64,000 nucleotides of DNA from Polytrichum commune. Lineage: Eukaryota > Streptophyta > Polytrichopsida > Polytrichales > Polytrichaceae. The notes under the pieces are model-generated. The model had not been told where the DNA came from, did no database searches, and was given only the letters and a program-made list of their open reading frames with translations. Positions 13,836 to 34,629 of this stretch are shown here, in pieces. Position 1 is the first letter of the stretch. Each line of letters opens with the position of its first letter. A program made the translations under genes and the position numbers. The stretch lies in the NCBI GenBank assembly GCA_950295325.1, contig OX485805.1, positions 36,631,501 through 36,695,500 on the forward strand, given 5' to 3'.

Positions 13836-14500
13836 TTAAGGGGGTCCGAATATATGACCAACGAGCAATTTCTAGCCATATTGACTTACTCTCAACCTTA
13901 GAGTGCATAAACAGGCCATTTTCAAGCACCAAAAAAATTAAAAAAAAGACCCCCGAGGGGGGTGCCGTTAACGGCACCTCTCGGGGGCACCACATTATAA
14001 CCTCAAAATCTGATATTTATGAGTATATTATGCATCCTTATATGACCTTCAACCAAGACCAAAATCAACTTAAGGGGGTTCGAATATATGACAAACCAGC
14101 AATTTCTAGCCATATTGACTTACCCTCAACCTTAGAGTGCATAAACATGCCATATTCAAGCACCAAAAAAATAAAAATAAAAACCCCCGAGGGGGGTGCC
14201 GTTAACGGCACCTCTTGGGGGCATCACATTTTATCCTCACAATCTGATATTTATGAGTATATTATGCATCCTTATATGACCTTCAACCAAGACCAACATC
14301 AACTTAAGGGGGTCCGAATATATGACCAACGAGCAATTTCTAGCCATATTGACTTACTCTCAACCTTAGAGTGCATAAACAGGCCATTTTCAAGCACCAA
14401 AAAAATTAAAAAAAAGACCCCCGAGGGGGGTGCCGTTAACGGCACCTCTCGGGGGCACCACATTATAACCTTAAAATGAGATTTTCATTTGCATATTAAA
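13836..14500 (+). repeat. 234-bp satellite, right part of array 1
   Basis: Palindrome cores lie at about 13,962, 14,196 and 14,430 (234-base steps). Units here are very similar to each other. Long open frames that read through the repeat (for example 13,739-14,479) are repeat-derived: their sequence repeats every 78 residues. Confidence 0.9.
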
Positions 14501-14510
14501 CATCCTAAGC

Positions 14511-14920
14511 CACGGGGAGGTCACTTCATTGTCAAGTTGACACCACGTGCGGACAAAGTTTGCTACCCCTATATTACATGCCATATATAATTTTAAAATT
14601 TATGATATTTTTTCTACATATACATAACCATTGATAGTATCTTTTGTATACTTTTTTGAAATTTGTAGTCATCTTTATTTTTTTTAGTAAATTTTTTCGT
14701 TCAATTCTGTGTCATTCTAGTTAGAATTGGTATGTTTTATGAAAAAAACAAATCATCAAATTTAGTTACCAATTTTGACTATGTCATAGGTACTGTGTAT
14801 ATCTACTCATGAAAAAAATTTGATAAAATTTTGATCCATTCTGGTGGTGCAACTTACCAAAAGAAGATTTTTTTTGGCCGCACGTGGTGTTCAACTTGAC
14901 AATGGAGTGATCTACCCGTG
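14511..14920. mobile_element. 410-bp hAT-like foldback MITE
   Basis: Terminal inverted repeats of about 45 bp: the left starts CACGGGGAGGTCACTTCATT and the right, reverse-complemented, starts CACGGGTAGATCACTCCATT. Both continue into TGTCAAGTTG and CACCACGTGCGG. It is flanked by an exact 8-bp duplication TCCTAAGC (14503-14510, 14921-14928). The 8-bp duplication is typical of hAT elements. The AT-rich centre has no coding capacity. Confidence 0.85.
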
Positions 14921-14928
14921 TCCTAAGC

Positions 14929-15466
14929 AGACCATAACACTATATTCGTTAAATTGAGACTTTCTATAGTCTCAAATTAATATATGGATCAAACAACATT
15001 CCGTGTTCCGAAACTATATTGCGAACAATCTCAAATATATTATATGTTCTAATATCCCAAATCTATTATGTGTGGACATAAGCACATATGGTAGAGCACT
15101 CAACACCAACTTCATCAACAAAAACACTTTGGGTAGAGCACTCCAAACTAGTTTCACCCAAGAAACATATAAAATGATTTCTATTATTAGCATGGTCAAT
15201 AAAATATAGACATTGCAATATACAAAGTGCATGCAATAAATGCATATTTCTTCAATGGAAAATTTAGTCCCAAACTTAATAAAAAAATGAACTTCACAAT
15301 TGTATTGAAATATAGTAAATGGATATTCATCCAACCCCAAACAATATAGCATTCGCAAGTTCTACCCAAACTTTGCCCCAAGTTTGAGGAGCACACATAT
15401 GAGTAATATATATTCGTCGAATTACTGTTTACACTATAATCATGCTAACACAATCCTACCAACTTC
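14929..15466. other. AT-rich spacer
   Basis: No gene was seen. It contains a short duplicated phrase (GGTAGAGCACTC at about 15,092 and 15,133). It probably holds the 3-prime UTR and terminator of the minus-strand gene ending at 15,467; no specific poly(A) signal could be fixed. Confidence 0.35.
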
Positions 15467-18400
15467 TCATTCAACGTGGGTTGCTTCTTCTACGATCCGA
15501 GCAAGGTTGTCTTTTGCAAAAGTTATGTACTTTTGAGGGATGGACACTGATCTACTATGATTTTTCCGTGGTTTCCATGCTATGAATATGGAATCTGTAT
15601 CTACCCAAGATGGACCGTGCTCGGAATCCACCTTCCACCGAAAGTGTTGGTTTGTATCCCAGCCTGTATAATGCCGAACAACATCTTCATTCCGTGCTGT
15701 CGGTCGGTAGTACTCTACTTGTATTTGTCGAAAATGAGGGCTGGAAGTTACAAAATTTGGATTGGACAAAGCTCTTGCCACCCACACTGGCTTTGCATAT
15801 GTCTCATCTCCAGGACGCAAAATGAGCATATAACCTTCATGACAATCCACTGCAATGCGGAAAGATGGTGGCGGACGACTACTAGCAGGCCCCACGTAAT
15901 GGTCGTCCACATCAAACTCCTCTCGAACCTCTCCATTTCCCAAAAGACTAGCCTCCGAAGCTTGTACATTGACACGTGTTTGTGGCCAAAACCCATGCCT
16001 TAAAGTAAGGGGTGTATCTTGATGAAGGTTTGCCAAAGCGCCACGAACACGTGTCCAATATTGTATCCAATTTCCGTAACGAAGCCAACACGATCCACCA
16101 ACATCCGCTACCCTCAAACTCTCCCAATATTGTATGAAGCCTGATATGCCTTTACAAATGTCCTCCAAATTCTTCATGGGTATTGGTTTGCAAGGCTTAG
16201 GCTCTCCGTCAGGCAACATCGTCCTTCCCTCCCCATCAACACGCCATACAAGGAGACCCTCTGGCGGGCTCCAGTCTTGTGACGTGCACAACAACTTGTA
16301 TTGCATGGCGGGGACACCATCGTCACGCACGTAGAACCGAAATTGTTGTGCCTTCGTATGTCCGATCAATCGGTGAGCTCCGCTTCGAATATACGGTTCT
16401 ATAAATGCCTTGAAGTCGGGAACCTCCTCGATCATATGGGGGATGACGGGAATGTTCTCCAAATCCATGTACGACTTCATCAACAATGGGATTGTTGGAA
16501 AATCCTCCTCGCGCAACTTCATGCTCCACCGCCCAAAAGATGCATCGATATCGTCGTGCGTGTGGCCTACCAATAGAAAGGACACAAAAACCTCCTTGAA
16601 AATGCCTTTCGCAACCAACAACGACCAATATGCAAAAACATATCTACTTTTATTGTCCTTCGCACAATTGTCCAATTGGACACGCAGAGTTGGGGGCAAA
16701 TTCTTGGCAATCACATCTTCACTTGGTGGCTCCGGCAAGGAGTGCACGCATACATCTCTTCCATCCAAGACCGCTTCATATAGAGGTGTTGATCCCGAGT
16801 TTTCAAATAACAATCTTGATGAATAGGACGGCGGTTTCTCTAAATCACGTAAAAGCTTTGCAAATGACCCTATCGTGTGGTTTGAATCCGCCGGATACAA
16901 ATCAAGAGCATAATGAGCATACTTGACATCACCGTGTCCATGTGCAATCATCCCTGCAAAGCCAACCCAATGGTTTAATATTCAACTATAACACCAAAAA
17001 ATTCACATGGTGTACATCTATGGCCCCAAGTACAAACCTAAAGCACAAATTTGTGTTTAGGTAATGCAATGCAATTGTTATCGAAATCACCTGTAACCGA
17101 TACAGGAAGCTTAAAAAGGCCGTCCGTGGCTTTGATTCGATTTGCAAAACATGGTGAGGCTGTTTTGGCATGGTCCATTTTGTCATGGATGATTGTAAGG
17201 ACCTCCAAAGGCCTAGAGATGGACAAAGCTCTATTTGTGTAGTAATCATTACGGTGTGCCTCTTGCATGTTCACATGCTTGAAATAGTTCATTTGATGTG
17301 CGGCATAGGACTCTGTCCCCATCGTGTGTGCATCTCGAAGGCGTTTCAACTTCTCGCATTTAGAACAACGGGCAAATTTGTCGCCTCGTCTTTTTGTGAT
17401 GTATTCGCTAAAGTGAGATTTTTTGATTGCACTCAGTTTCGACAACGAAATAGGGTCCAACCCAGCCTTCTCGCCAACTGCGTTTACGTCCAACAATATG
17501 TCTTTCCATTTCGTGCCTGTAGGAAGAACCTTCTCCACAACATTTTCACCGGTTGCGAGTGTGCGTGTTTTGTGCGGCATTGCATCGGCAAGGGGGACAA
17601 TGATGGTTGCCAGAGTGGCGGTTGCTTGTCTCGTTGCTTCCCTTGGTTTCTTTAAGCCCGTATTCCCATGGCGACGGGACCGGCGGCCTTCCTTGGCATA
17701 CGCGGTTTGTCTATAAAATTCCGCTTTCGACACACCGTGAATGATGTACCATGCCGTACAACACACGTCTATGCTCTGAAGGGTGATGACCTTGCGACCC
17801 GCTCCGTTCACATGTATCGCCCTATGGACATCAAGCTTTTTGGTGGATCTTAGACGGAAATCTCCAAGCCACATTTCCTCGCGGATGGCCTTCAATTTAT
17901 CCCTTGGGAACAATTGGCAACAACGATGTACACAACAATCCTTCGTAGCAACTTCTCTAATAGACTCCTCACAGAGCAACCTTTGACGTTTACACTCATT
18001 TGCAGACGGAGTAGGACGTGCCAATGTATCGTACTTCCGTAGGCCTTTGCGTGGCCGAATGTTTGCTTGGAGCTCTTGTTGGATTTGGATGTGTCGTCGC
18101 TCATGCTCATGCAAATTAACCCCATCAATTGTCACATTCCTCAACGGCCACCTTCGCAACGAGAACCTATGAGTTGGATTAACTTCGGAATGTACGAGTG
18201 ATTCCAATATAACAACTCCAATGTCCTCGGTGCCAAGGGGGTTTTCATCAATGCAATCTTGTGGATGTGTGTTACAACAAATACCCTCCGCCACAGCAAC
18301 TCCACTGTCATTAACAAGTACCACATCCAAATTCACCCATGAAGCTCGTAAAAGCCCAGCACATTCCACAGTGGGGCAAGAAGGGGCAGATGGCGAAGGA

Positions 18401-18555
18401 CTCCCCAAATGACCTTCATCTGCACTGTCACCAAAACTATCCTCCCCGACAATGTCTAGGTCATCCCCAGACGAGGAATGGGAGTTGCCCATGTCTTCAG
18501 AGAAGGCATCCCCTCTTCCACCAACTCCCTCCATTTCGCCTACACACATGCACAT
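15467..18555 (-). CDS. DUF7869-like protein, two exons, apparently intact (983 aa)
   Basis: Exon 1 (18555-17091) and exon 2 (16953-15467) join across a 137-bp GT-AG intron as SVTG-MIAHGHGDVKY, giving 983 residues. The N-terminus is acidic and low complexity. Next comes a Cys/His-rich segment (DCCVHRCCQLFP, then QSIDVCCTAWYIIHGVSK), a later FARCSKCEKLKRLRDAH, then YTNRALSISRPLEVLTIIHD and DKMDHAKTASP. The second exon has VQLDNCAKDNKSRYVFAYW and SFLLVGHTHDDIDASFGRW. These acidic and histidine motifs in this order match the DUF7869-type family that is expanded in lower plants and resembles a captured transposase (RNase H-like) core. The C-terminal 200 residues look like a chromatin-reader-like tail but are not assigned. 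Alternative starts are MEGVGG a few codons in. Possible role: domesticated or active transposase. No lesion seen. Confidence 0.7.
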
Positions 18556-18724
18556 GAAACCTCAACAAACATGCATACCATGTAAAGGTTCAAAAGAATC
18601 AAATATCGAAAAATGCAAGACATCATGATAAATGGGGACACCGAGGATAAAGACATTTGCAACACAACTACAATGTGAACTCCCAATACTTTGCGCAAGT
18701 TCCAAAAAACATTTTGGGAGGGGG

Positions 18725-19530
18725 TTTGGGTCGACCGATCCAAACCTTCTCATGGTCAACCTCCAGCCGGCAAATTGGGGTTGGGGTTTGGGTCGGTCGA
18801 CCCAAACATTGTATGTCAAGGGGTCGAGGGGTTTTGGTCAAGCCTGCCCACACTGGTCGAGGGGTTTGGGTCTACCGACCCAAACCTGATCACGGTCAGG
18901 CTGAACCCGCCCACACTAGTGGAGGGGTTTGGGTCGACTGACCCAAACCTGGTAAGGATCAGGTTGAAACCCTCCCACACTAGTGGAGGGGTTTGGGTCG
19001 ACCGACCCAAACCTGGTAAGGGTCAGGTTGAAACCCTCCCACACTAGTGGAGGGGTTTCGGTCGACCGACCCAAACCTGGTAAGGGTCAGGCTGAAACCC
19101 GCCCACACTAGTGGAGGGGTTTCGGTCGACCGACCCAAACCTGGTAAGGGTCAGGCTGAGACCCGCCCACACTAGTGGAGGGGTTTCGGTCGACCGACCC
19201 AAACCTGGTTTAGGGTTTAGGGTTAAACCCACCCACACTAGTGGATGGGTTTCGGTCGACCGACCCAAACCTGGTTTAGGGTTTAGGGTTAAACCCACCC
19301 ACACTAGTGGAGGGGTTTTGGTCGACCGACCCAAACCTGGTAAGGATCAGGTTGAAACCCTCCCACACTAGTGGAGGGGTTTGGGTCGACCGACCCAAAC
19401 CTGGTAAGGGTCAGGTTGAAACCCTCCCACACGAGTGGAGGGGTTTCGGTCGACAGACCCAAACCTGTGTAAGGGTCAGGCTGAAACCCACCCACACTAG
19501 CGGAGGGGTTTGGGTCGACCGACCCAAACC
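18725..19530 (+). repeat. 64-bp tandem array of the TTTGGGTCG palindrome (array A)
   Basis: Thirteen units with the palindromic core TTTGGGTCGACCGACCCAAA at about 18725, 18787, 18865, 18928, 18992, 19056, 19120, 19184, 19250, 19317, 19380, 19444 and 19509. The spacing settles to 64 bases. Spacers share CTGGTAAGGGTCAGGTTGAA and CCCACACTAGTGGAGGGG, the latter with an ACTAGT palindrome. Two units (19,200-19,300) replace part of the spacer with telomere-like GGTTTAGGGTTTAGGG and are 66-67 bases long. The left end lies about 170 bases upstream of the DUF7869-like gene start. Open frames in all directions through the array (GRSTQTP, GFGSVDPNP peptides) are repeat by-products. Confidence 0.95.
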
Positions 19531-20226
19531 TGATAAGAGTCACACTAAAACCCTCAAAATCCGGCGGATAATGCGGCGGATAATCCGAAATCCCATATGA
19601 TTTTGAGCTCATTGCAAAGTTCCCGGTGGGCTTCCATGCTGTGGATAGGTGCTCATGAACTTGCATGCTGTGGATAAGTGCTAATGAACGGCAGCATGCA
19701 CGAACCTTGAAGTATAGCTCCGACTAAGAGTTCTCTCTACGAATTCAAGAGTGGGAGAAGAGCAAAAAAGGACAGAGTTTTGGGGGGTGCGTCCCTTTAT
19801 ACTATCCACCTCCGTTTCTCCGACTTCCTCATTGGATGCCTTTCCCGCCTTGTTCACCTGCAGAGGTTTTTTCAAACCTCCTGACATAATTCCCCGTTTT
19901 CTGTTTATAGTAGAAAATGCGCATCTATCAATGCCCCTCTCATACCCCAGCCGTCATATGACTTAGTCTATGATATTTAATCTATTTTTTTTTGTCTTGT
20001 GTGGATATGACATACGCCGTTGGGAGGAAGGGTGGCGGCCACATTAATTTTTCAAGTATCATCAAGGTATATTTTAACCAATATGTAGACCCAAACACAA
20101 CTCCATTCAATGCTTTCAAGTGTAAACCTATTTAGGTGGGGTTTGGGCCATTTGGAGGCTGCAATTATGAGAGAGTTTCCAAGGCTTGAGGCCATTGTCA
20201 TGATGAATAGAATTATTTATTTGTCT

Positions 20227-20246
20227 CCCCTAAACCCTAAACCCTA
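20227..20246. repeat. Interstitial telomeric repeat
   Basis: CCCTAAACCCTAAACCCTAG, the plant-type telomere motif on the C-rich strand. Confidence 0.85.
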
Positions 20247-20943
20247 GAACCTTGCTCTATTATCTCACATGCAAGAGTGGCAATGACGAACGTATGTGGA
20301 CGTTGTTAAGGGGATACTAACTACCAATGTCCCTTTTTAGTTCAATCTTTTAATGTTACTTGAATCCATCCTCAAGTTCACTTCAAGTTTACTAATGTGT
20401 GAGAGCAAAACATCAAAAATTGGACCCTAAACCCTTATAACATCCACAACATGAAATACGCATTGACTAAATACAAAACCAATTAGGATATCATGTTTAA
20501 ACGTCCCATATAACATATTAACATGATCAAGATTGTATTTACTATGACCTTCCGATTAGACTCTTCTTCATATTATGCAAACAATATCTGTTATATCTTC
20601 CTCCATTATCTAATACACGTGGAGAGAACAATGAATAACAACATGATGTTGTGCTTCTCCGATTTACTTTTACATCACATTCCATATATTAAATACATCA
20701 TGAACGATGGTTTATTAGCGACTAATATGTGATTCCCTAAAGTGAGCGAAACATCCAAAGTTGGACCCCTAGCCCCTATTAACATCCACAATATTTCATG
20801 TTATTTGAATAAACACAAGACCAATCAATATATCGCGTTTAAACGTCTCAAATAAACACAATATCGTCTTCACTATAACCTTCCTATAAGACTCTTCTCA
20901 CGAGTAAGACAATGTTATACATTGACATAGATTAATATGTTAT

Positions 20944-20996
20944 AACCCTATCCCCTAAACCCTATCCCCTATCCCCTAAACCCTAAACCCTAAACA
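20944..20996. repeat. Interstitial telomeric repeat, degenerate
   Basis: A run mixing CCCTAAA and CCCTATC/CCCCTATC variants over about 50 bases. Confidence 0.85.
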
Positions 20997-21702
20997 CCAA
21001 AATTTAGTAGTGGTTCACTGATGCCCCCATATACAAACAACATCTATTTTAAACGTTCTTATTAAGTGTATCAAACACTAACTATCATATTGAGTGTAAT
21101 TATCATATTCATTGTAGTGACACTACAACACTTTCATTGACTAGATAAAACTAAATTGGATATATAGAGTTTGATACACTAAATATAAATGCATACACTA
21201 ATTACCAATATCCCTATGACAATATGTAAGGTTATATCTAAGGGGTTTTATTCTACTTGGAGTCAAACATTGTGGTATAATTCAAGCAATATATTGACAA
21301 AAGAGGTGCCAATATTATAAAACCTCATATACTAAAAGTCACTAAATATAATAGTTAATGCAATTATTTAGACCCTCGCATGAGGACTTATATCTTGAAA
21401 ACAAGGAATTGATGCCATGACAAAGTTGAATATTTTGGCCAACTTTCAATTTGCGCTAATCAAAAGAACATATGTTGTTTGTAATGTGTGCACACAACAT
21501 TGCTCCATCCTCAAGCATGCAAGTGTGACATTAACATACGTATGTGGAAGTCATTAATGGAACCATAAATCACAAATGACATTTGTGAGTTCATTCTTTC
21601 GTGAATTAGGATGTTCTGATGACAATATACATTTGTATTGAGAACTACAAGCACCAAGGCCCTGTCATTTGACGTGTGTGCCATTCATTTATGGTTTGTG
21701 GT

Positions 21703-21724
21703 GTTTAGGGTTTAGGGTTTAGGC
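21703..21724. repeat. Interstitial telomeric repeat
   Basis: About three copies of GTTTAGG on the plus strand, opposite in orientation to the two upstream blocks. Confidence 0.85.
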
Positions 21725-22480
21725 ATCATCGAACAAAAAACTGAATGTTTAAATGGCTTCATATGATATGTGAAGTCCATGGGGTTGAAGTAGATACATT
21801 TGTTATCATTTTGTTTCTCCCATGTACTTCAAATTTGAGCTTCTAAGTACATATGTTAATGTTCACTCTAATGCTACTTGTTAGGGTATCCATTGTAGTC
21901 TAGAGCTTTGTCCTCTACCAACAACCATCATAGAAATTAGAATACATAACCCAATACCCTTAACCATGTGAACGGTTACCATATTTATATTATTGCACCA
22001 TGTAATTGCCTTTGAAGATTGCAATATAATTATGAATTACTCCTCTTAGATTTTGTAACACTCTCATATGATTCCATACGACTACATTATTGAAATACCA
22101 AAACAAATAATGGCTACGATGTTATCAATTATCAATTCCAATGGGCGATCATTCAATTCAACACCATTAAAATCAGAGTTGGCGATGGTGTAAATATTGT
22201 GCAACACCTTAGTCTATGTAGCTTTTTGAATGTTTTTGAATTGCCGGTAATGAATACCGGGTTAGAATGCCGGGGCCGGGCGGCCAAGAGAGGCGCCGAC
22301 CCTCCTATGTCCCGCCCCTAGAGGCAAGGACAATGCCGAAGGCAATGTCCATAGGGTGCCATGTGTCAACACCAGAAGCCGCGCGGGCAACCACCTCCAC
22401 CAAGGAGGTTTGGACACCTGGCATGGTTTTGGCCCGCGAGGCTTCTGGGCCGTTGATGGGCCCAAGAAATCGCATGGCCA

Positions 22481-23101
22481 GGATTGTCTGAAGGGGAACC
22501 CTTCGGCTCTCTCCTTCTCTCCCCTCCTCTTTCTCTCTTTCTCTCTTTCTCTCTTTCTCGCTCTCCTCTCCCTCCGCGCGAAGCGCCGCTATTGGAAACG
22601 CCGCCGCCGTTTTCCATAGCTACGCGCAAAACACTTCTTTTGTGTTTTTTTTTTTGCGCTTGGACGCGCCGCTTCAAGCGAAGCGCCGCTTTCCTCATTG
22701 TCTTTCTCTTCACTTTTTCCTTCTCATTCTTCTTCTCCATCTCTCTGGTGCTTTTCCTCCTCTTCTCGGATGATATGCTTACTCTCTCTTCTTGGTCCAG
22801 AGTGCATGCATTGAGTGAGTTCAGAGCGGATTAGTTGAGCGTCTTTCTTGTTGTAGAGTGGTAGCAGTGAGTGACATCAGACTTTTGTTGTTGTTGTGGA
22901 GTGATTTCAGGTTGTTATTAGTAGTGATCAGAAGGCTTGCAAGAATCAGGGTGTTTGTGAGAGGGTTTCAGAGTGCTTGTGAGATTCATAGTGTTTTTTA
23001 GGTGTTTCTGAGTGTTGATTTTTAGTGATATCACAGATTCTCTGGATTCTGGTTATAAGAATCAGCTTGTAAGAGCAGCTTACAAGAGTTTCAAACACAA
23101 G
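22481..23101 (+). promoter_or_regulatory. CT-rich leader and probable 5-prime UTR exon of the ParB-like gene
   Basis: A pyrimidine-rich run (CTCTTTCTCTCTTTCTCTCT type) at about 22,508-22,575 is followed by mixed leader sequence ending at 23,101 with a consensus-like donor CACAAG/GTATAT. The next acceptor (TTTCAG at 23,883-23,888) places the ATG at the first base of the coding exon, so the 23,102-23,888 intron lies in the 5-prime UTR. Pyrimidine-rich stretches are common near plant transcription starts. No TATA box was identified with certainty. Confidence 0.45.
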
Positions 23102-23287
23102 GTATATCATTTCACTCTACACAATTTGCTTCAGTTCCTTTACGATCATGTTTCATATACAATGCATTGTATATGATGTTTAAACATTAAACATGCCTCT
23201 GGAAACTGAGTAGTTTCGGGAGGCGATCCAAATCCCAATTTAAAATGTAATGAAACATTTAAAATCAGCTTGAAAATTGATTAAATG

Positions 23288-23861
23288 TTTGGGTCGATCG
23301 ACCCAAACCCCAAAGCCTCATGTTTGGGTCGATCGACCCAAACATTGCAGCCTCATGTTCGGGTCGCTCGACCCAAACCCCAAAGCCTCATGTTTGGGTC
23401 GAGCGACCCAAACATTGCAGCCTCATGTTCGGGTCGCTCGACCCAAACCCCAAAGCCTCATGTTTGGGTCGAGTGACCCAAACATGAGGCTGCAATGTTT
23501 GGGTCGCTCGACCCAAACCCCAATTCAAAATATAAAAAAACACTTGAAACTAGATTGAGAATTAATAAAATGTTTGGGTCGAGCGACCCAAACCCTAGAC
23601 CCTCATATCCGGGTCGCTCGACCCAAACCCCAATTTCAAATCTACTGAAACACTTGAAATCAGCTTTAAAATTAATGAAATGTTTGGGTCGCTCGACCCA
23701 AACACTGTAGCCTCCACATTTAAAGAATACGAGCCACCAAGTGGTCAAGGTTTCGGTCGATCGACCCAAACCTTGAATTCAGGATGGTCAATAAAATACA
23801 TTTGTTCCATTCCATCAAATGCTAAATGCATTGTGGACTACTTTAGGTCGATCGACCGAAA
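23288..23861 (+). repeat. Palindrome array B in the 5-prime UTR intron
   Basis: Twelve copies of TTTGGGTCGATCGACCCAAA and variants start at about 23288, 23323, 23358, 23393, 23428, 23463, 23498, 23573, 23608, 23683, 23751 and 23842. The first seven are exactly 35 bases apart with spacers alternating CCCCAAAGCCTCATG and CATTGCAGCCTCATG. The centre dinucleotide varies (AT, CT, AG), but the arms stay complementary in almost all copies. All lie within the predicted 23,102-23,888 intron, just upstream of the coding start. Confidence 0.95.
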
Positions 23862-25216
23862 CTAATAGTTTGCATTTTGGACTTTCAGATGGCCCCAAAG
23901 AAGAGACCTAGAGAAAGGTTTTTTATGCTCGCGCCAGACGCACTATGGCAGGAGTATGAAACTCCCCAGGACGACTCATACGTGCCCAAGGATGGGCTCG
24001 TTCTTGCGTGGTCAGTTCAGGTTGTCAAGGGCTCCCAGTTCAAGCTCCTGTTCGTGGTAAAAGTAGGGACCCACGAGAACCACACTTGGACAACGTTGAC
24101 AGGATGGGAGGTTGCGTCCGTCCAAGCCCTCGGGGATTACGTGGACGTAATTCTGGAGAACTCCGCCGTGCAGAACGCCCACATGTTCATGCACCAGTTC
24201 TCCAAGTCATTCGACACCATATACGCCAAGGAGTCATGCGTGGAGCCTGAAACAATTAAACCGGAGACAGTTTTCATAGATGGCAATGTAACCAACACGA
24301 AGGTTGCAAGTAGGTTTACAAAATTGAAACAGGCTATCACGGTCCTCAACAAGGCGCTGCAAAGTAAAGCCAAAACGCAGCAGCCTGTGAGGCGTAAGGC
24401 AACGGCGGAAGAAGGCGCAGGGTCGTCCAGACCCCAAACTGTGAGGATGCCGCGTCCGGTCCCTGCAGACTCCAGACGGACTAGCACTACAGGAACGACA
24501 GCGAGACGCCCACACCGTCCGGAAGTCGGCAGACAACCCCGTCGAAGAGGGCGAGAGAGTCCTCCGTCATGACTACCGAGCCAGTTTCCCCGGAGCTGCG
24601 GATGCCGAAACCTGGCCAAGAGGTGGATGCAGGCGAGATACAGAAAATCAATGATAACTTCGAGACGAAGTGCCTGCATTGCTTCTTCATGGGCAGGGAT
24701 TTCAAGTTCGAGGTGGACATTGCACAGTGCCACCTTGCGCTACTTGAGAAGTGTGTCCGAGCCAAGGAGGACGCCTACGACGACTGGATGGTCGCTCAGA
24801 TCTTGGGAGGGCAATTCAAAGACGAAAGGCAGACAATTGTTGTCATGCCCCAAGGGCTGAAGAAAATGCCGACGCCTGAAATGTGGCCGACAATATGCAA
24901 AGGGGACTTCTGGCTGATTGACGGCCAGCACAGTGTGGAGGCCTCTAAAAAAATTCAGCTGATGACCGAGTGGGACGACCCCAACAACCAAAAGGAGAAG
25001 CTAAAGGTGTGGAAGGCATTGGTGGTTTGGTCTGACAACGAGACCGTACTAACCGACATCTCACGCTTCTTCAACATGGGGAACAAGAAGAGGGCGTACC
25101 AGGCATCCTGGATTCGGAACATCATGGCCTCGAGGGAGGTGTGGGAGTTTTACGGCAGGCCTCCCAAAGAAAGGGAGAATGCTAAAGACAAGAACCCAAA
25201 ATGGGAGGTGAGTATG

Positions 25217-25293
25217 TTTGGGTCGATCGACCCAAACTCTTGCATTGTTTACTTTTTTTCGTCAGGTTTATAGTTTGGGTCGATCAACCCAAA
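25217..25293 (+). repeat. Two palindromes in intron 2 of the ParB-like gene
   Basis: TTTGGGTCGATCGACCCAAA at 25217-25236 and TTTGGGTCGATCAACCCAAA at 25274-25293. Both are followed by CTCTTGCATT, so the copies share flanks. They sit inside the 134-bp intron 25,208-25,341. Confidence 0.95.
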
Positions 25294-26708
25294 CTCTTGC
25301 ATTCGCAGTTTTCTAACATGTGTTATTTACTTCATGTGCAGGACTTTAAATACCAGATGATCAACAAATTCTCCTCGATTGACAACGCTTCCCACAAGCA
25401 GAAGAAGTACAACGAGCTAAGAGGAGAAATTTATTTGATCACAGCGTCTGACTCCGTGTGGGGGAGATGGAAGACTGTTTTCAAGAAACACGAGACGGGG
25501 GACCTCATGGATCCTGACACCGGCATGCTCTTCAACCAGACTGGGCGCTTCAAGCAAATGAAGCCTCTGGTGAGGGAGTTCTTCAAGGCTCTTCAAGATC
25601 TCTCGGAGACAAAGATGGGAAAGGCGGCGTCCCACATCCTCCACGTGCAGCCGACTGCAAAGAGATGCTGGATCCACCCGAAAATCGTCTTCATCAAGCC
25701 CAAAATCTTCGTCCCTTCATGCTACACCATGAAGGAATGGACATAGAATAGGAAAAAGAAGACGACCATCGTCCAGGAGCTGCACAAGCTAGTGCCGGAG
25801 AGGAAGCTCATAGTGGATGGAGAGGTCGACGAGGCGCACTGGAAGGCATTCAAAGCCGACTACAAGTTCACCAGTGCGTCCATGGCGGCACTCATCAGGG
25901 AGGCGGGAGACGACTTCCTGAAGTCCAAGCTTGTGAAGGGGGGGAAGAACCGGGCGCTTCCCAAACACTCCACGCGTGCCTTCTCCAACTTTATAAAGGA
26001 GAAGAAGATCGTCAGCTTCGAGGGCGACGCCTACTTCAACTTGGTCACCCTCGAGCCTCTCAAGATCCAAGGATGGCCGGGCTCTGATGCCAGGAAGGCT
26101 ATCAGGACAAAAGCCGGGGACCGCTTCCCCTTCGGAATGATAGACTTCAGGAACATCCCTGGAGCCTCATTCGAGGGCACAATGAGCACCCCGTTCTACG
26201 AGCCGTTCTTCACGAAGTTTGTGGATTACGGCAACCCCAAATTCAGGGAGGTCGACGTCTGGCTGTGGATTGTCGAGGACAGGAGGGCAGAGCAGGTGTA
26301 CGAGATCGTGTGGAAATTGCAGCCAGAGTACTCCGTCTCAAAATCTCACTACGTTGCTGCACCGGCGGAGGGGGCGTACAGCACGCTGAAAGACAAGAAG
26401 ACGAAGATCGTCAACGTGCTGTGCTTGTACTTCGTGTACAAAGCTGAGCTGATTAAGGTGCCAAACCATCCCATAGCCAGGATGGAGAAGCTCTTCCAAG
26501 TCCAAGAAGGGTTGGGCTCCAGCAGAAGCTTGTACGACGAGGCGAAGTACGCCAACTACCCCGCGGATGAGCTGCGCATGGAGTTCTACCTGCGGATGAT
26601 GAGGACCCTCACGAAGAGAGGGGACTGCATCTTCAACGTCTTCGGGGGCTCCAAACCGGTTTTTGCAGCCATGGTAAGCAAAGAACCCTGCAGAGCCTAT
26701 ACGGACGG

Positions 26709-26764
26709 TTTGGGTTGAGCGACCCAAACTATGGGCATACCTAGTTTGGGTCGCTCGACCCAAA
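26709..26764 (+). repeat. Two palindromes in intron 3 of the ParB-like gene
   Basis: TTTGGGTTGAGCGACCCAAA at 26709-26728 and TTTGGGTCGCTCGACCCAAA at 26745-26764, inside intron 26,674-26,847. Confidence 0.95.
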
Positions 26765-27969
26765 CTAACTATTCTTATTTTGTTTTGGATGTCATTTTCC
26801 ATTATTTGTTCATTTGGTGATACTAAGTATTGATTTTGATTGTGCAGATGTCTGGGTTGAACATCTACTCCTATGTGGAGGATGCCGATGTTCAATTCTA
26901 CAGGACCCAGAAGGCGCTGGCCAAGAGAATGGACATCCTCGACTGGATACCCGGATCCTACCTCGAAGAGATCGTCGAGGGGGGCGAGAATCCTTTGGAT
27001 ATGGCGAGGCGAATCAACCCGGGTGAATTCGCCATGCGCGCCCCCGTTCAATTGCCAAAGCCGCTCATCAGGTTGCATCCGAGCAATCCGTCAATGGGAG
27101 CAGGTGGCGAGGTTGCAGATGAGGGGGAGGAGGGGGAGGAGGAGGAGGAAGCAGAGAAAATGGAGGGGGAGGTGGAGGAAGGGGCAACAAGATTCACTCA
27201 AGAATCCGAGGCCCCTCAGCGGAAGAAGGCCATGCGGGCTGCCACGCCGCAGAGCAAGCTAGTGCCCGTCCTCACGGTGGCCGACGCGAAGGACATGCAT
27301 TCGAGGGACGCGACGGCCACCTTCAGGGAGCGGCGAATGCTGAAGGGGAAGAAATTATACAGCGATTATGCGGTGGAGGAGACGATCGCCATAAGCTCCG
27401 AGGACGAGGACGACATGGAGCTCGCGAAGAGGATGAGGTCGGATCCTGCCTCCCCCACAGCGTTCGCTGGGATGGTGAAGGTGAAACCCGAGGTCCTCAC
27501 CGTGGAGGAGGCCAACGCGAAGATGCTCCGGGACGAGGAGCAACGCGTCCGATTGCAAAAGGCCGCCGCCGAGGAGCCCTCGGTCCGCAACGAAGTCGTG
27601 GAGTTGAGGGCTCTCCTGTTGGAGCAGGAGCGGCAAAGGGCGATGGCCCAACCTCCGTCCCAAGCGGATTTCATCACGCAAGTGATCCAGGGCATGCTGG
27701 CGCAGGGATTGGTGATGGCTCCCCCGAGTTCATTCCCTCACTTGCCCGCAGGCTTCCCTCCACAGCATATCCACCCGCGGCCCACGCCGCAGCAGTCCTT
27801 CAGCTTCGCGCATTTGCTGCAGCCGCACGCCCGCCCTTACACACCCGTCCAGCAGGTGGACGACCCCAACCTTTGGCGCGTCCCCGGAGCTTCCAGCTCG
27901 TTGGCACCCCCGCCGCTCCGGCCTCCCATCCTCTTGCCCCCACACCACCAGCGGGACGACCCCCACATG

Positions 27970-27989
27970 TTTGGGTCGTCCGACCCAAA
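27970..27989 (+). repeat. Palindrome inside coding sequence, copy 1
   Basis: TTTGGGTCGTCCGACCCAAA lies in the last coding exon and is read in frame as FGSSDPN. It does not shift the frame. Confidence 0.95.
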
Positions 27990-28038
27990 CAGTGCCGACG
28001 TTGCAGCGTCCCAGAGCGACGCTCGCCAAGCAGCAGGG

Positions 28039-28058
28039 TTTGGGTCGGCCGACCCAAA
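28039..28058 (+). repeat. Palindrome inside coding sequence, copy 2
   Basis: TTTGGGTCGGCCGACCCAAA, a perfect 20-bp palindrome, is read in frame as FGSADPN, 69 bases after copy 1. Confidence 0.95.
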
Positions 28059-28342
28059 CCCCGTCCCCGACCAGACCCCGGTGGACGAGCTCATGTAAGA
28101 TGTTGAAGGCCCGCAAGGGCCTGGTGATACCTCTACTCCTAACCCAGTCGATGAACCAATGCATGATGCGCATGCGGAGGTTGGGTTGGGACAAAGGCCT
28201 GACAGTCAGCCTTTGCAGGAGCAGGTTGCGGCTGACGTCGTCGTCGGAGGCGGCGGTGACAGAGGTGGGGCAGCGCACGCGGTGACGGCATCCACGTCGT
28301 CAAGGCACGACCAAGGCGAGGTAATGCACTGACCCCACTCAG

Positions 28343-28362
28343 GTTGGGTCGGTCGACCCAAA
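28343..28362 (+). repeat. Palindrome in intron 4
   Basis: GTTGGGTCGGTCGACCCAAA, 22 bases into the intron that starts at 28,321. It is the last clear copy of the family in the window; a decayed candidate (TTTGGGTCTTCCTCCCTAAA) sits in another intron at about 31,575. Confidence 0.9.
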
Positions 28363-29129
28363 CTCCCTGGGTCTTTGACTTCTTGCCTTGGTCGTGTCCC
28401 CTAGCTACCCTAAACTCACGCACACGTCGCGCCCCCCGGCACTCGCGCCCTTCGCCACATCCCCCCGACCATTCGTTCGTCCACATACCCTCGACTTGCG
28501 ACGAAGTCTTCATCACGGTGGCCCGTCTCTTCAATTTTTGCTAGATGTAGAAGTAGGCTAGTTTGAACGCATCGTTCAACGCGGCTCCCTCCATTCAAGA
28601 TGTACATAGAGCATTGTATACACTATAATCGCCATTTATTACTCCTATATACTTGTATCCTGTGTTTGGATGTATGTTGTATGCTCTTGCCTCTCTTGTG
28701 TCCCTTGTTGCACCCCCTCCAAAATGAATCAAATGGTTTTGTGTTTGCACCGAGAACACTCGTTTCTTTAATGCTTCGTTTGGACATAGCATGACATAAG
28801 TCGCCCACCGTTTTCTCTCGATCGTATCCGCAGGGCTCGGAGCATAGCGTAGCGGCTCCCCGACGCTCTTCTCCAAGGAGCGGAGAGGGCAGCGCGGCGG
28901 CACCCCCGATTTTACCCGTCCCGCCCCCACGGCCGAAGAAACGATTCCTGGTGTTAGACCTGAACGGGGTCCTCGTCCAATGCGTTCATTGCCCTAGGAC
29001 CCCCACGGTGCCCTTTTGCAAGCCCGAGGATGCAAATTACGACGGGCCGCCCACGTTCATAAAGAGCAAGCTAGTTCACCTCCGCCCGTGGCTTTGGACC
29101 TTCCTCCAGATGGCCCAACAACAATGGTG

Positions 29130-30453
29130 CACTAGTAGAAAATTTTGCGTCCGGATCAACAGAAAGACGTTGGTCGCGGTTGTTACTTAGGACGCGTTGA
29201 CCTGGACATGATGTAACACAATTTTGTTGATTTTTTCTGTTGATATGGTCACAAAAATATTTTTTTTTTAAAACTTATTATATATATATATATAACATTA
29301 AAAAATAAAAAATGAATAAATGTCAAATATGCAATTCCTAACCCCTCCCAAGTAACCCTCAACCTATACCTCACCTACAAGTATAGACTACCTACCACTC
29401 ACATAGGTGGCAAGGCCAAGGCCAAAGGTGTCGGCCACGGGAATCAAACCTTGCACCTAGTGATACCCACACATGTGCCTTAACCACTAGGTCATCACAT
29501 CACACATGATATAAACGGAGTGTTTTAAACCTTTCTAGAATAAGGCCACTAATTTCTCTTTACTACCTACTTGATGTATATATTTACAGTAAATATATAC
29601 AGTATATAATTACAGTATATAATTACAGTAAATATATACAGTATATAATTACAGTAAATATATACAGTATATACTTACAGTAAATATATACTGTATATAA
29701 TTACAGTAAATATATACAGTATATAATTACAGTAAATATATACAATATATAATTACAGTAAATATATACAGTATATAATTACAGTAAATATATACTGTAT
29801 ATAATTACTGTAAATGTATACATATTTATATGTTATATATTATATACATACATGTTACATATATTGTATACATATATGTTACATATATTATATACATATA
29901 TGTTACATATATGTTACATATATTATATACATATATGTTACATATATGTTACATATATTATATATATACATATATACATACATACATATACATACATACA
30001 TACATATACATATATATATACAGACATATATATACATATATATATTATATGTTACATATATTATATACATATTATACATATTAATATATTAATATTAATA
30101 CATATATAATATTAATTATCAACTAATATAATATTTATAATATTTAAACACCTTTGAATTCGTAATTATTTCCATACCCATACACTTACAAGTCCATAAA
30201 TTGCAAAAAATTAAAAAGATTTTACAATATTCCAATAGATCCTAGAATATTCCAAAAAAGATTCAAAAAAGATTTCACATTTACTAAAATTTTGTTGATT
30301 TGGTCATTGTACTATTCTAATCAACAAAAATGTAGGCAGTAAACTGTTGATTTTTACAAAAATTCAAAAATCAGTGAAATCGGTCATTGCAGTGCCCGGA
30401 TCGACAAAGATCTGTTGATTTTTTGTTGATTTGGTCATGATTTTCTAGTAGTG
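29130..30453. mobile_element. 1,324-bp non-autonomous CACTA element
   Basis: Left terminus CACTAGTAGAAAATTTTG. Right terminus, reverse-complemented, CACTACTAGAAAATCATGAC. Exact 3-bp duplication GTG at 29127-29129 and 30454-30456. Subterminal CTGTTGAT/ATCAACAG motifs occur in both ends, as expected for transposase-binding repeats. The centre is simple-sequence DNA with no coding capacity. It must be mobilised in trans. Confidence 0.9.
29578..30115 (+). repeat. AT-rich microsatellite core of the CACTA element
   Basis: First about nine repeats of ATTACAGTAAATATATACAG (29,588-29,820), then (TATATTACATATATGTTACA)-type and TACATACA runs to about 30,115. Open frames rich in Tyr/Ile/His across it are artefacts. 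Confidence 0.9.
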
Positions 30454-30980
30454 GTGGGTGGTCGTGTGGAGCTCCATGACGGCCGAGAACACCAATGCCG
30501 TCGTGGAGTTCATCTTCAAGGGCATCGAGCCCCCCTGCATGGTCCTAGCACAGGAAGCCTGTAGAATATTGTACACACAGGACGGCAAAGTCGTCAAAAA
30601 ACCAAACAACCCCGCTTCCCCCCAATATCTCAAGGTCTTGAAGCCCATTTTTTGGGACCAGCGTCCGTCCTTGATAGGCGTCCCCTACGACGTCCGCCCC
30701 ACCCGCGAGAACACGCTCATGGTGGACGACAGCATCGCAAAGAACATGTTGAACCCGACGGCCAACCTCATAGTTTGCCCTACGTGGACGGTCGAGAAGG
30801 TCCGGGACCGATTTTTGTTAGACCTTGGTAAATACCTCCAGTCGCTATGCGGAAGCGGACTGCCTGTAAACAATTTTGTTAGGAACAATCCGATAGGCGA
30901 GAGTTACTTGGATCCACGAGACCATTTGTACAGAGAGTTGTTATCTCACGCGAAATTTAACAAGCTCATTTGAGACACTA

Positions 30981-31041
30981 CGTGTGTTTGTATGTGTATG
31001 TGTGTGTGTATGTGTGTGTGTGTGTGTGTGCGCGCGCGCGC
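30981..31041 (+). repeat. (TG)n/(CG)n microsatellite
   Basis: About 45 bases of TG/TATG repeats ending in six CG dinucleotides; alternating purine-pyrimidine, so potentially Z-DNA forming. It lies just past the phosphatase-like stop codon. Confidence 0.9.
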
Positions 31042-31144
31042 CCGTTCATTTTGTGTAATATATGCTTCATATGTATCTTGATTTTCACGCGCTCTATCAA
31101 ACCCTCCTCCCTTGGGTTTTGTTTCGTTTCCTTTTTTGCGCTAG

Positions 31145-31946
31145 CGTTTGGAGCCCTCGATTGACATCGTCAGCGAGTCAGAGTTGGGGAGCTTCTTCTA
31201 GGAGACCGTTTACGACGCCGCGTCAACCATTGACTACTCCAAGGAGCCTCTTGACGCCGGCGTCGTCGATAGCCCCCCACCCAAGCAAATCTTCCGGCGA
31301 TCTCCGTCCCCGTCGCCGCTCAAGGGCATAAATCGCAAATGCGTCCGGACGTCCCCCTCTCGCCCCGGCGGCAATAATACACCTCAACGGCGGCTGCGGA
31401 TGGACACTCGGCCCACGAAGAGCGGCACCCTTCCTATTCCTTTGCGGGACGCATTGCCCCTCCTCGCCGACTCCGACGGGAACGCCCCCGGTGACAAGGT
31501 GAACCCCCCCCCCCAAAACATGGTTAACCGCGCATTACAATCATCCCGCACTTAAAAAATGAACGTGTGACACGTTTGGGTCTTCCTCCCTAAACTAACA
31601 CATGTGGTTTTGCATTGACGCATTGCAGGTTGCTCCCTCCCGTAAACCTATGCGGTCTAGTATGTCCGTCGAGTTGGAGCGTTTCTACTCCATGACCAGA
31701 AATGCAAGACAGTCCACTTCATCGTATTCGAATTCTTCGTCGTATAATTCGGGCGGCCGACGGAATCCAAAATGTGTTATTGTTGGCACTCACCCCAAGA
31801 ATGGCTATAGTCGCGGGGCGGAGATTTTCAGGAATGTTGAAGCAATGCGAGCAAAAGAAGCCGCAGCAAAAGAAAAAGAGGCAAAAGCAAAAGAGGCAAA
31901 AGAAAAAAAAGCAAAAGAGATAGAGGCAGTCTCCGAGGCTACATAG
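31145..31946 (+). pseudogene. Unknown two-exon protein fragment with Lys/Ala/Glu-rich C-terminus
   Basis: Exon 31145-31498 follows GCGCTAG and reads RLEPSIDIVSESELGSFF, an in-frame TAG, then ETVYDAASTIDYSKEPLDAG and a Ser/Pro/Arg-rich stretch ending DSDGNAPGDK at a donor. A 130-bp intron leads to 31629-31946: VAPSRKPMRSSMSVELERF, a Ser/Asn-rich middle, a short RRNPKCVIVGTHPKNGY segment and a charged helix made of AKEKEAKAKEAKE repeats (probably a single alpha-helix or coiled coil), ending at 31,946. No family is recognised. Its position after the phosphatase-like exon and similar codon use suggest it once belonged to the same or a neighbouring gene. Confidence 0.4.
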
Positions 31947-32089
31947 GCCATAGTAGGTGTAGGGTTTTGGACCATAGGCAATATGATTTTGGGTCGCACT
32001 ATCCAATGGATGTGTGGTGTTAGCATGCTATGCATTTTACGTGCCATACTTTGTATGTTTTTCTTTTTGCAATAATATAAGTGTCACAT

Positions 32090-32400
32090 GATTTTGCCTT
32101 CAATATGGTCTAAGGTTTGGAGTGCCTTATTGTGTGCATTAATATGAATGTTTTAAGATTTCCCCTTCAATAAGATCTATGGTTTGGAGTGCCCTACCTA
32201 AACCATACATTACAAGCTCTCATATTTTGTGTGCATTAATATGAATGTTTTAAGATTTTTGCTTCAATAAGATCTATAGTTTGGATTGCCCTACCTAAAC
32301 CATATTCATACAAGCTCTCATATTTTGTGTGCATTAATATGAATGTTTTAAGATGTCCCCTTCAATTTGGTCTAAGGTTTCGATTGCCCACCCTAAACCA
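32090..32400 (+). repeat. Tandem repeat, about 70-98-bp steps
   Basis: Four copies of a phrase with TTCAATAAGATCTATGGTTT, GGAGTGCCCTACCTAAACCA and GTGTGCATTAATATGAATGT. Starts are near 32,098, 32,165, 32,263 and 32,358. The first copy is shortened. Confidence 0.8.
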
Positions 32401-33221
32401 TCACAAATATGAGTTATTAATGGGGTTCTTGGTCTAAACAACCGCTTCAAAGTGTTCGCATCTTACAACTTTCACCAATATGTGTTCCATTTATCCTTGT
32501 TCTTATTTCTATGAATGTCTCAAAATGCCCAAAAAGTTTTAATTTAACGAATATAGTGTTCCATGGCGTTAAGGGAAGATGCATTTGGTGAATAGAGGAA
32601 GGTGAGCCGAATTGAATGGGAATTAAGCAGAATATTTACCTCATTGAGAAAAGCAACCATGTTATCGTAAGTTGAAGGGAATTTGTTGTGCTTTGTCTTA
32701 TAATCTAACATCCTGTGGAAGGAGTCATTAAGTAAAAGAACCCGAGGAGAAGCAGAGGAGGAGTTGTATGCCTGGGATGAAGACATTGTCTTGACAGCAG
32801 GTGGGATGAATCTGATGGGATTGGATTCACCAGCAACTCCTAGGCGAATACGCTTTAGAGCAGGTTCCCGCGGAGTATGTGAGATAAGAAGGTCCGCAAG
32901 TGAATCAGGTTGATCACCGATATCCTCTGTTACTTGAATATCTTCGTCCATTGGCTCCTCAACCACCTCAGCAGCCTTCCGCTTAGATACCCGAGGCCTA
33001 CTCCCTGTAGTAGCTGTCTTGCTTTTGGAGGAGCCACCCATAGGAGGTGTAGGAGACTGTGAGACAAAAATTGATGCGGCGGGAGAAGGTAAGAGAGGTT
33101 GGATGGAGTCCCTGAGTGCGATGTCAAATGGAGGAGGCTTCTTGAACGGACAATCCAAATGCCATCCGCACTGTTGAAAATGGATTGGATCCCATGTCCT
33201 TATAATTGCAGTAGTGAACAT

Positions 33222-34629
33222 CAGGGTTGTCTATCGCGACGTCATGATGTGTCGTGCCGTCATGTCGTGTCGTGTCGTGACGGACCCCTCCGTCACGACA
33301 CAATAGGGTCCACGTAGGGTCAACATAGGGGGAACGGACTAGGGTGGGTAAAATACTTACCTTCTTGCCAAGGTGGCGTCCTATGTGGCAGAAAACGCCG
33401 ACGTGGTCGTGGATATGCCTAGCGCCAGGTAAATCATTTTGCCATTTTGTTTACCATTTTGTTAAAATCAAAGTAGTAAAAAACAACTAAGGAAGGTGTG
33501 GGGCGGACGGGGAACGAGGGTGGGGCGGACGGGGGTGGGGGGGGGAACGGAGCGGACGGGGTCGGGAACGGGGGCGGGAACGGAGCGGACGGGGGGGGGG
33601 AACGGAGCGGACGGAGTCGGGAACGGGGGCGGACGGGGGGAACGGGAGCGGACGGGGGGGGGGAACGGAGCGGACGGGGGGGGAACGGGGCGCGGATAGG
33701 GGGGAACGGGGCGGACGGAAGGGGGGGAAATTTTTTTAAAAAAAATGGGGCGGACGGGGAAGGGGGGGGCGGGGAAAAAAAAAAAAAAAAAACTGGGGCG
33801 GACGGGGGAGCGGACGGAGGGGCGGACGGGGCGCGGACGGGGGGGAACGGGGCGGACGGGGGGGAACGGGGCGGACGGGGTCGGGAACGGGGGCGGACGG
33901 GGGGGAACGGGAGCGGACGGAGGGGGGGGGATTTTTTTTTTAAAAAATGGGGCGGACGGGGAAGGGGGGGGAAAAAAAAAAAGAAAAAAAGAACTGGGGC
34001 GGACGGGGGGGAACGGGGCGCGGACGGGGGGGGAACGGGGCGCGGACGAGGGGGAACGGGGCGGACGGAGAGGGGGGAAATTTTTTTTTTAAAATGGGGC
34101 GGACGGGGGAGCGGACGGAGGGGCGGACGGGGGGGGGGAACGGGGCGCGGACGGGGGGGGAACGGGGCGGACGGGGTTGGGAACGGAGCGGACGAGGGGG
34201 AACGGGGCGGACGGAGAGGGGGGAAATTTTTTTTTTAAAATGGGGCGGACGGGGGAGCGGACGGAGGGGCGGACGGGGGGGGGAACGGGGCGCGGACGGG
34301 GGGGGAACGGGGCGGACGGGGTTGGGAACGGAGCGGACGGGGTCGGGAACGGAGCGGACGGGGTCGGGAACAGGGGCGGACGGGGGGGCGGACGGGCTCT
34401 AGTAAATTTTTCCCCACTTTACCTTTACTTTGCTGACATGTCATCACACGTGGACATTGTAAATCCTACGTGTCTGAATTGGGTTAATGTAATTACACAA
34501 AAAAATCGGTAAAATTCAAGTCCGTCAGGATAAAGACAGCATCCGACATAATGTCGTGACGGATACGTGTCGTGACGGCACGACATTATGCCGGGATTAC
34601 CCTCCGTCACGACACAATAGACAACCCTG
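33222..34629. mobile_element. 1,408-bp non-autonomous hAT element carrying a GC-rich minisatellite
   Basis: Terminal inverted repeats start CAGGGTTGTCTAT at both ends (13 perfect bases, then a longer imperfect match with CGTGTCGTGACGG-type repeats). An exact 8-bp duplication GTGAACAT flanks it (33214-33221 and 34630-34637). CAGGG termini with 8-bp duplications are hAT hallmarks. Subterminal regions contain several TCGTGACGG/CCGTCACGA repeats. No transposase is present. Its removal restores the host reading frame (SPDSMFT-TAIIRTW). Confidence 0.92.
33496..34395 (+). repeat. GC-rich minisatellite (GGGGCGGACGGGGG units)
   Basis: About 900 bases of GGAACGGGGCGGACGGGG-like units, with four islands of a homopolymer-rich unit (GGGGGGAAATTTTTTTTT or poly-A runs). 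Strongly purine/G-rich on the plus strand, so a G-quadruplex candidate. Higher-order repeats of roughly 150-170 bases are visible near 34,080-34,330. Gly/Arg/Asp-rich open frames are artefacts. Confidence 0.95.

Follow-up and report, generated by a model that had tools for sequence, protein, structure and literature searches.

The locus and the element

The DNA considered here (the window) is a stretch of 64,000 nucleotides of Polytrichum commune (assembly GCA_950295325.1, contig OX485805.1, positions 36,631,501 to 36,695,500), which harbors a dense local family of short palindromes. A reading of this window from its sequence only (the sequence-only reading) had described the palindromes and linked them to no transposon; in fact they lie in the interior of a large transposon, the termini of which that reading had left unreported. 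By its sequence, the element is a DNA transposon of 17,625 bp (14936-32560) that carries two divergent genes, a DUF7869 gene on the minus strand and a gene on the plus strand, here called gene A, and all 32 palindromes lie between its terminal inverted repeats (TIRs). The ends are defined from the single copy in the window. The two TIRs are equal in 26 of 28 letters and score 23.4, whereas 60 shuffled pairs reach 15.2 at most. In the window, the initial 19 letters of the repeat occur at these two places only, at up to three mismatches (0.03 expected). The boundaries and the first of the two genes are as follows.

14932..14935, no strand: target site duplication (TSD) CCAT, left copy (boundary letters)
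14936..14963, plus: left TIR, 28 bp, AACACTATATTCGTTAAATTGAGACTTT (inverted-match search between flanks)
15467..18555, minus: DUF7869 gene (putative transposase), probably of two exons, splice sites approximate (profile and homologues)
32533..32560, minus: right TIR, 28 bp (inverted-match search between flanks)
32561..32564, no strand: TSD CCAT, right copy (boundary letters)

Sola elements are described in passages of a published account as having a 4-bp TSD, TIRs ranging from 11 to 1124 bp and lengths in some cases above 15 kb, and as being present in Physcomitrella (PMC10741241). With CCAT on both sides and TIRs of 28 bp, 26 of them matching, the present element fits Sola by TSD length, TIR length and size; the TSDs of Sola2, in contrast, are AT-rich according to the part of the Sola2 account concerned (PMC3627910). 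The putative transposase contains PF25273 (DUF7869) in the open reading frame (ORF) at 15467-16951 (E 1.8e-40), and both DUF7869 ORFs correspond to a single protein in the homologue P0155. Of the 224 homologues found, the 120 listed include a best cluster that is 93% identical and comes from a metagenome, as well as proteins labeled as those of the mosses Ceratodon purpureus (50% identical) and Physcomitrium patens (two, at 51% and 45%), which would point to a moss or close kin as the probable source of the window. No literature naming DUF7869 was found, and its profile matched none of the solved structures at E up to 1. CACTA/EnSpm elements have termini that start with CACTA and a 3-bp TSD; this assignment was rejected, as the repeat starts AACACTA and the three bases beside CACTA read TAA at the left end and TTC at the right one. 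Zisupton (KDZ) was likewise rejected, since only 4 bp are duplicated, whereas its TSD is 8 bp (PMC12730594). A viral origin was also set aside: the exact palindrome pattern has no match in viral contigs, and no relative turned up among them for P0001, a homologue of gene A, or for the DUF7869 alignment, in a set from which records near the genome of the window were possibly left out.

The palindromes

A scan of the window for TTTGGGTCG-NN-CGACCCAAA at up to two arm mismatches returns 32 copies, the first at 18725 and the last at 28343-28362, comprising 14 perfect copies, 15 with one mismatch and three with two. A second search of the window returns the same 32, and a chance origin can be rejected, the mean in 100 dinucleotide shuffles being 0.00. 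The conserved unit extends to 22 bp, GTTTGGGTCG-NN-CGACCCAAAC, with G at position -1 in 30 of the copies and C at +1 in all of them, and no letter outside this core is common to all 32 flanks. The center is occupied by AC (12 copies), AT (6), CT (6), AG (4), GT (2), TC (1) or GC (1). Allowing three to four mismatches adds five places in the window (15128, 31575, 31988, 32280 and 48422), two of which (15128 and 32280) are copies of a related second motif found close to the two ends of the element. This motif, TTTGGAGTGCYCTACCYAAA, is matched three times in the window with three mismatches allowed (0.01 expected), lies downstream of both genes and is inverted in orientation between the two ends, an arrangement as expected of subterminal repeats.

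15128..15147, minus: subterminal motif TTTGGAGTGCYCTACCYAAA, left end (motif scan)
18725..19528, no strand: 13 palindromes, mostly in 64-bp steps, intergenic, upstream of the DUF7869 start (window scans)
31575..31594, plus: degenerate palindrome with four mismatches, in a probable further intron (3-4 mismatch scan)
32183..32299, plus: two copies of the subterminal motif at the right end (32183, 32280), within a 98-bp repeat (motif scan)

The placement of the copies is predominantly non-coding: 13 lie between the divergent genes, 17 in four introns of gene A (12 in the 5' intron, two each in introns 1 and 2, and one in intron 3) and two in coding sequence, both in exon 3. None is found in exon 1 or exon 2 at up to two mismatches, none in the gap that separates the two DUF7869 ORFs of the window, and none, again at up to two mismatches, within 3.8 kb of the left end or 4.2 kb of the right end of the element.

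Much of the sequence-only description is borne out by these scans. It had counted the same 32 copies between 18.7 and 28.4 kb; its statement that there are none elsewhere in the 64 kb is true at up to two mismatches, with the five further places appearing at three to four; and the 64-bp array, the array with 35-bp steps and the intronic, coding and single copies are all present. The association with introns that it had proposed to check shows in the 17 copies that the predicted gene model places in introns. One of the two origins that it had offered for the arms, a copying mechanism, has a real counterpart in the local tandem duplication that made the 64-bp and 35-bp arrays, and ten letters are common downstream of the palindromes at 25217 and 25274. 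The reading had also held that this is not simply one satellite, and satellite DNA is indeed rejected because the arrays share nothing beyond the 22-bp core. The center is as variable as it had supposed, with seven dinucleotides seen, although the commonest, AC, was missing from its list. Its claim that the arms stay complementary holds for the arm letters, which are conserved, but not for pairing as such. The 18 imperfect copies contain 21 changed arm positions, of which 17 yield a mismatch and four a G-U pair, and not one is restored by a matching change. The check for compensatory changes thus gave a negative outcome in the window, and the argument that the inverted repeat itself is under selection, which had been drawn from complementary arms and a free center, fails there because no arm change is compensated. 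The commonest change, seen in six of 32 copies, replaces G with C at position 4. CpG-type transitions account for four of the six changes at arm CpG positions and for four of all 21, a hint that this copy of the element was possibly methylated in the past; they sit in the palindromes at 18928, 23463, 25274 and 26709.

Gene A

The model of gene A is a prediction from splice-site letters and the reading frames of homologues, and it comprises the following parts.

23103..23888, plus: predicted 5' intron; 12 palindromes, spaced mostly at 35 bp (splice-site letters)
23889..25207, plus: exon 1, PH-like N-terminal part and ParB/Srx-fold domain (structure model)
25208..25341, plus: intron 1, palindromes at 25217 and 25274 (splice-site letters)
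25342..26673, plus: exon 2, in-frame TAG at 25744-25746 (letters, homologue reading)
26674..26847, plus: intron 2, palindromes at 26709 and 26745 (splice-site letters)
26848..28320, plus: exon 3, coding palindromes at 27970 and 28039, TAA at 28096-28098 (letters)
28321..28833, plus: predicted intron 3, palindrome at 28343 (splice-site letters)
28834..30973, plus: NIF/FCP1-like phosphatase domain, interrupted by a CACTA-type insertion (PF03031 profile)
29130..30453, no strand: CACTA-type insertion, CACTAGTAGAAAA...TTTTCTAGTAGTG, flanked by GTG on each side (boundary letters)

Exon 1 is predicted to adopt the ParB/Srx N-terminal fold, and a search of a viral fold library places ParB-like proteins in rows 1 and 3 (E 1.5e-3 and 4.2e-3). 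ParB proteins bind cytidine triphosphate (CTP) through a GERRxRA motif; this motif is not kept in gene A, where the consensus of 66 sequences, aligned to the GERR site by eye, reads GQHSVEA. No helix-turn-helix was identified in gene A, the sole model reaching exon 2, from a six-row alignment, having been set aside at a pLDDT (predicted local distance difference test) of 31. Pfam searches for DUF1985 and DUF287 gave no match at E up to 5 in the homologues P0001-P0003 or at 0.01 in the ORFs of the window, NCBIfam matches were weak and below cut-off, and profile matches to ephrin receptors (E 0.024 and weaker) were taken as noise.

The phosphatase exons are predicted to join gene A: exon 3 ends in GGC GAG and, by its letters, joins the exon at 28834 in frame from the donor at 28321, and P0001 terminates in GEVMH, as expected from read-through of this donor. 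The PF03031 match covers profile positions 3-52 before the insertion (E 0.026, below the cut-off) and 56-153 after it (E 1.1e-5, above the cut-off), such that the insertion splits the match between positions 52 and 56. The motif of NIF/FCP1-type phosphatases is usually DxDx(T/V). Because gene A reads DLNGV instead, phosphatase activity of its product appears doubtful. The copy in the window reads as broken, with a frameshift near 24500, the TAG at 25744 and the TAA at 28096, where P0001 continues; assembly errors may lie behind these breaks.

Persistence of the sites in homologues

The spliced gene A protein as query returned three relatives, which are 66-69% identical, and an alignment search found 118 among 7992 candidates scored. 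Many of the homologous gene calls appear to continue into intron 1, and because they do, this intron is visible as peptide, in which the palindrome takes the form FGSxDPN, WVxRPK or LGRxTQ depending on the frame. Among 47 homologue clusters with at least 10 residues past the end of exon 1, 27 contain a canonical form, six contain S[GV]xRPK, five are one residue off and nine have none. This set derives from 51 tails, from which seven false junctions (P0034, P0039, P0078, P0093, P0105, P0116 and P0118) were dropped by eye and to which a wider pattern added three clusters (P0076, P0079 and P0119). Partial forms can be seen by eye in four of the nine clusters without a site (P0015, P0083, P0101 and P0119), and no form was seen in the intron 1 tails of P0014 and P0071. 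The tails of the distant relatives P0076, P0079 and P0114 (35-43% identity) contain no palindrome, and the motif may therefore belong to the gene A subfamily only, as far as these tails indicate.

The clusters with canonical sites are 62-84% identical to the reference homologue, P0002, and the persistence of palindromes in the same introns over such distances supports the view of the sequence-only reading that there is selection, here on the sites, as judged from peptides rather than DNA. The clusters are not independent, and many may be copies from one or a few genomes. A shuffle control on the set of 51 tails (not 47) yields 0.001 canonical matches per set, and no canonical palindrome peptide occurs in residues 1-400 of 36 long homologues. 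Other positions are populated as well: intron 1 of P0002 contains three sites and its intron 2 another two, and P0001 likewise reads two sites in its second intron, together with one in coding exon 3, its other coding site reading FGTSSSN, a decayed form. The residues upstream of the gene A start in seven homologues contain one canonical site, three that are one residue off and one variant, with two too short to judge. Among the 120 listed of the 224 DUF7869 homologues, there is no strict palindrome peptide and there are two with one substitution.

In one clade the motif itself may have changed. P0022, P0024, P0026, P0028 and P0050 form one group with support of 99/100 in a 51-row tree, in which the bootstrap is unsettled. 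All five have S for W and three have SG for WV, and the simplest DNA for the left arm of this clade is TTTCGGGCG. Upstream of its start, P0026 has FRSIARN which, if it is a palindrome site, gives a right arm of CGCCCGAAA, and P0024 ends in FRASA, the beginning of such a form. Read from these peptides, the two half-sites may have changed together and symmetrically. Several points weigh against such a switch: the reading rests on the peptides of few sequences, position 4 varies alone in six of the 32 copies in the window, the SV rows P0028 and P0050 nest inside the SG rows, and another SV row, P0032, is placed elsewhere in the tree.

Surroundings of the element

Similar tandem units of 234 bp, containing the perfect palindrome GGTGCCGTTAACGGCACC, flank the element at 13836-14477 and 36643-38458. 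Just outside its left end, at 14506-14925, there is a stretch resembling a miniature inverted-repeat transposable element, with 35-bp inverted repeats (86%). A gene region on the minus strand at 32544-36375 has a DGNHRLQAW motif that recalls DGQHR/ParB proteins; it is broken up by a G-rich array (about 33.5-34.4 kb) that sits between 45-bp inverted repeats (33219-33263 and 34588-34632, 71%). Kinship of gene A with this neighboring gene is unsupported (hhalign probability 1.4). Further to the right, a long ORF at 42604-44826 has, by eye, a likeness to the transposase of Mutator-like elements, with no Pfam match at 0.01.

A proposed reader for the palindromes

A dimeric DNA-binding protein is proposed to read the palindromes because of their dyad-symmetric arms, the free 2-bp spacer, the many copies and the mostly non-coding placement. 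The account that we somewhat favor is that the palindromes are recognition sites for a protein of the element itself, and most likely for the product of gene A, which stands out among the candidates for its predicted ParB-fold domain and probably also bears a NIF/FCP1-type phosphatase domain. A symmetric dimer would read both TTTGGGTCG half-sites across the free two-base spacer, and the arrays upstream of the transposase gene, in the 5' intron and in the other introns would load the protein onto non-coding DNA. Once loaded, the protein would keep the genes of the element transcribed or tune their level, as VANC does on VANDAL; by this analogy, binding may act on silencing or transcription. That the reader is encoded by the element is probable because within the window the sites are confined to the element, and the motif appears to vary with the clade of gene A. 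A more specific and decidedly tentative version is that of a ParB-parS-like pair in a eukaryotic transposon, in which a ParB-fold protein with a phosphatase of the type acting on the polymerase C-terminal domain has loading sites in introns and the promoter region, and in which protein and site co-evolved, one clade switching both half-sites.

It is also conceivable, if unlikely, that a host transcription or silencing factor binds the sites, the element having either recruited this factor or been marked by it. Intergenic and intronic placement would suit regulatory sites, and the CpG-type transitions (4 of 21 arm changes) are those of methylated DNA; nevertheless, within 64 kb the palindromes occur only inside the element, and the apparent clade-wide change of motif is better suited to an element-encoded reader than to a conserved host factor. 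The spread of a neutral short sequence by tandem duplication and gene conversion would account for the clear local duplications, in units of 64, 35 and 98 bp, and for the letters shared after 25217 and 25274. We consider it improbable, as the sites share nothing beyond the 22-bp core and this core survives in the same intron of homologues as diverged as those described above.

The two remaining explanations appear less probable again. A role in transposase binding or end pairing during transposition, comparable to that of the subterminal repeats of CACTA elements, would be in keeping with the related motif TTTGGAGTGCYCTACCYAAA, which occurs near both ends in inverted orientation; the palindromes themselves, however, are concentrated in the interior and in introns, leaving the outer parts of the element free of them at up to two mismatches, and this makes such a role quite improbable. 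Hairpins in intron or leader RNA, serving splicing or small-RNA production, would be consistent with the folding of the AT-centered 22-mer into nine pairs (-13.2 kcal/mol, z -4.5). This is the least probable of the explanations, by a small measure, as 17 of the 21 arm changes break a pair, four leave G-U and none is compensated in the window, the G to C change at position 4 halves the energy to -6.6 in six copies, and 13 copies lie between two predicted genes.

Comparison with known systems

Bacterial ParB-parS and the KorB operators combine a ParB fold with repeated palindromic sites. The present element resembles them in both respects, the fold being predicted in gene A, and it differs from ParB-parS in that gene A is without the arginine CTP motif, has no identified helix-turn-helix and belongs to a eukaryotic transposon. 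A search of the open-licence literature found no report of ParB-type transposon proteins with such palindromic sites.

VANDALs are Mutator-like elements, and their VANC anti-silencing proteins bind a motif and remove methylation. In Arabidopsis, as described in passages on this system, VANC21 occupies arrayed motifs in introns and in intergenic and terminal non-coding parts of VANDAL (PMC5735166), and the targets of VANC6 carry other motifs than those of VANC21 (PMC5735166; PMC10398659). The present element is alike in several features: in both, a short motif forms dense arrays in introns and intergenic parts (PMC5735166), the arrays grow by tandem repeat, and the motif differs between related families, as it appears to do among the clades of gene A. 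In contrast, the VANC21 motif, YAGTATTAY, has nine bases and one orientation (PMC5735166), whereas the motif of the present element is palindromic, and VANC proteins carry DUF1985 and DUF287, neither of which the Pfam search found in gene A.

A further parallel is Sola1-1_Ec32 of Ectocarpus, a 21.5-kb element that, in the passages describing it, encodes a protein with ParB-like and methyltransferase parts on the strand opposite the transposase (PMC12477816). Both it and the present element are giant DNA transposons with a ParB-like protein on the strand opposite the transposase, predicted in the case of gene A; the partner domain in Sola1-1_Ec32 is a DNA methyltransferase, whereas gene A has a predicted NIF/FCP1-like phosphatase. 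The authors propose that the ParB-like proteins of giant transposons may bind the very element that encodes them and mark it (PMC12477816). The passages of that account describe no binding sites, whereas the present element offers many candidate sites, symmetric in form, retained by diverged homologues and perhaps open to switching from clade to clade; these put the proposal within reach of a direct test that needs a single protein and a single 22-bp probe. If gene A does encode the reader of these palindromes, this would suggest that sequence-specific self-recognition arose in transposons more than once, and under the tentative ParB-parS-like version the present element would represent a second, independent invention of VANC-type self-marking by mobile DNA.

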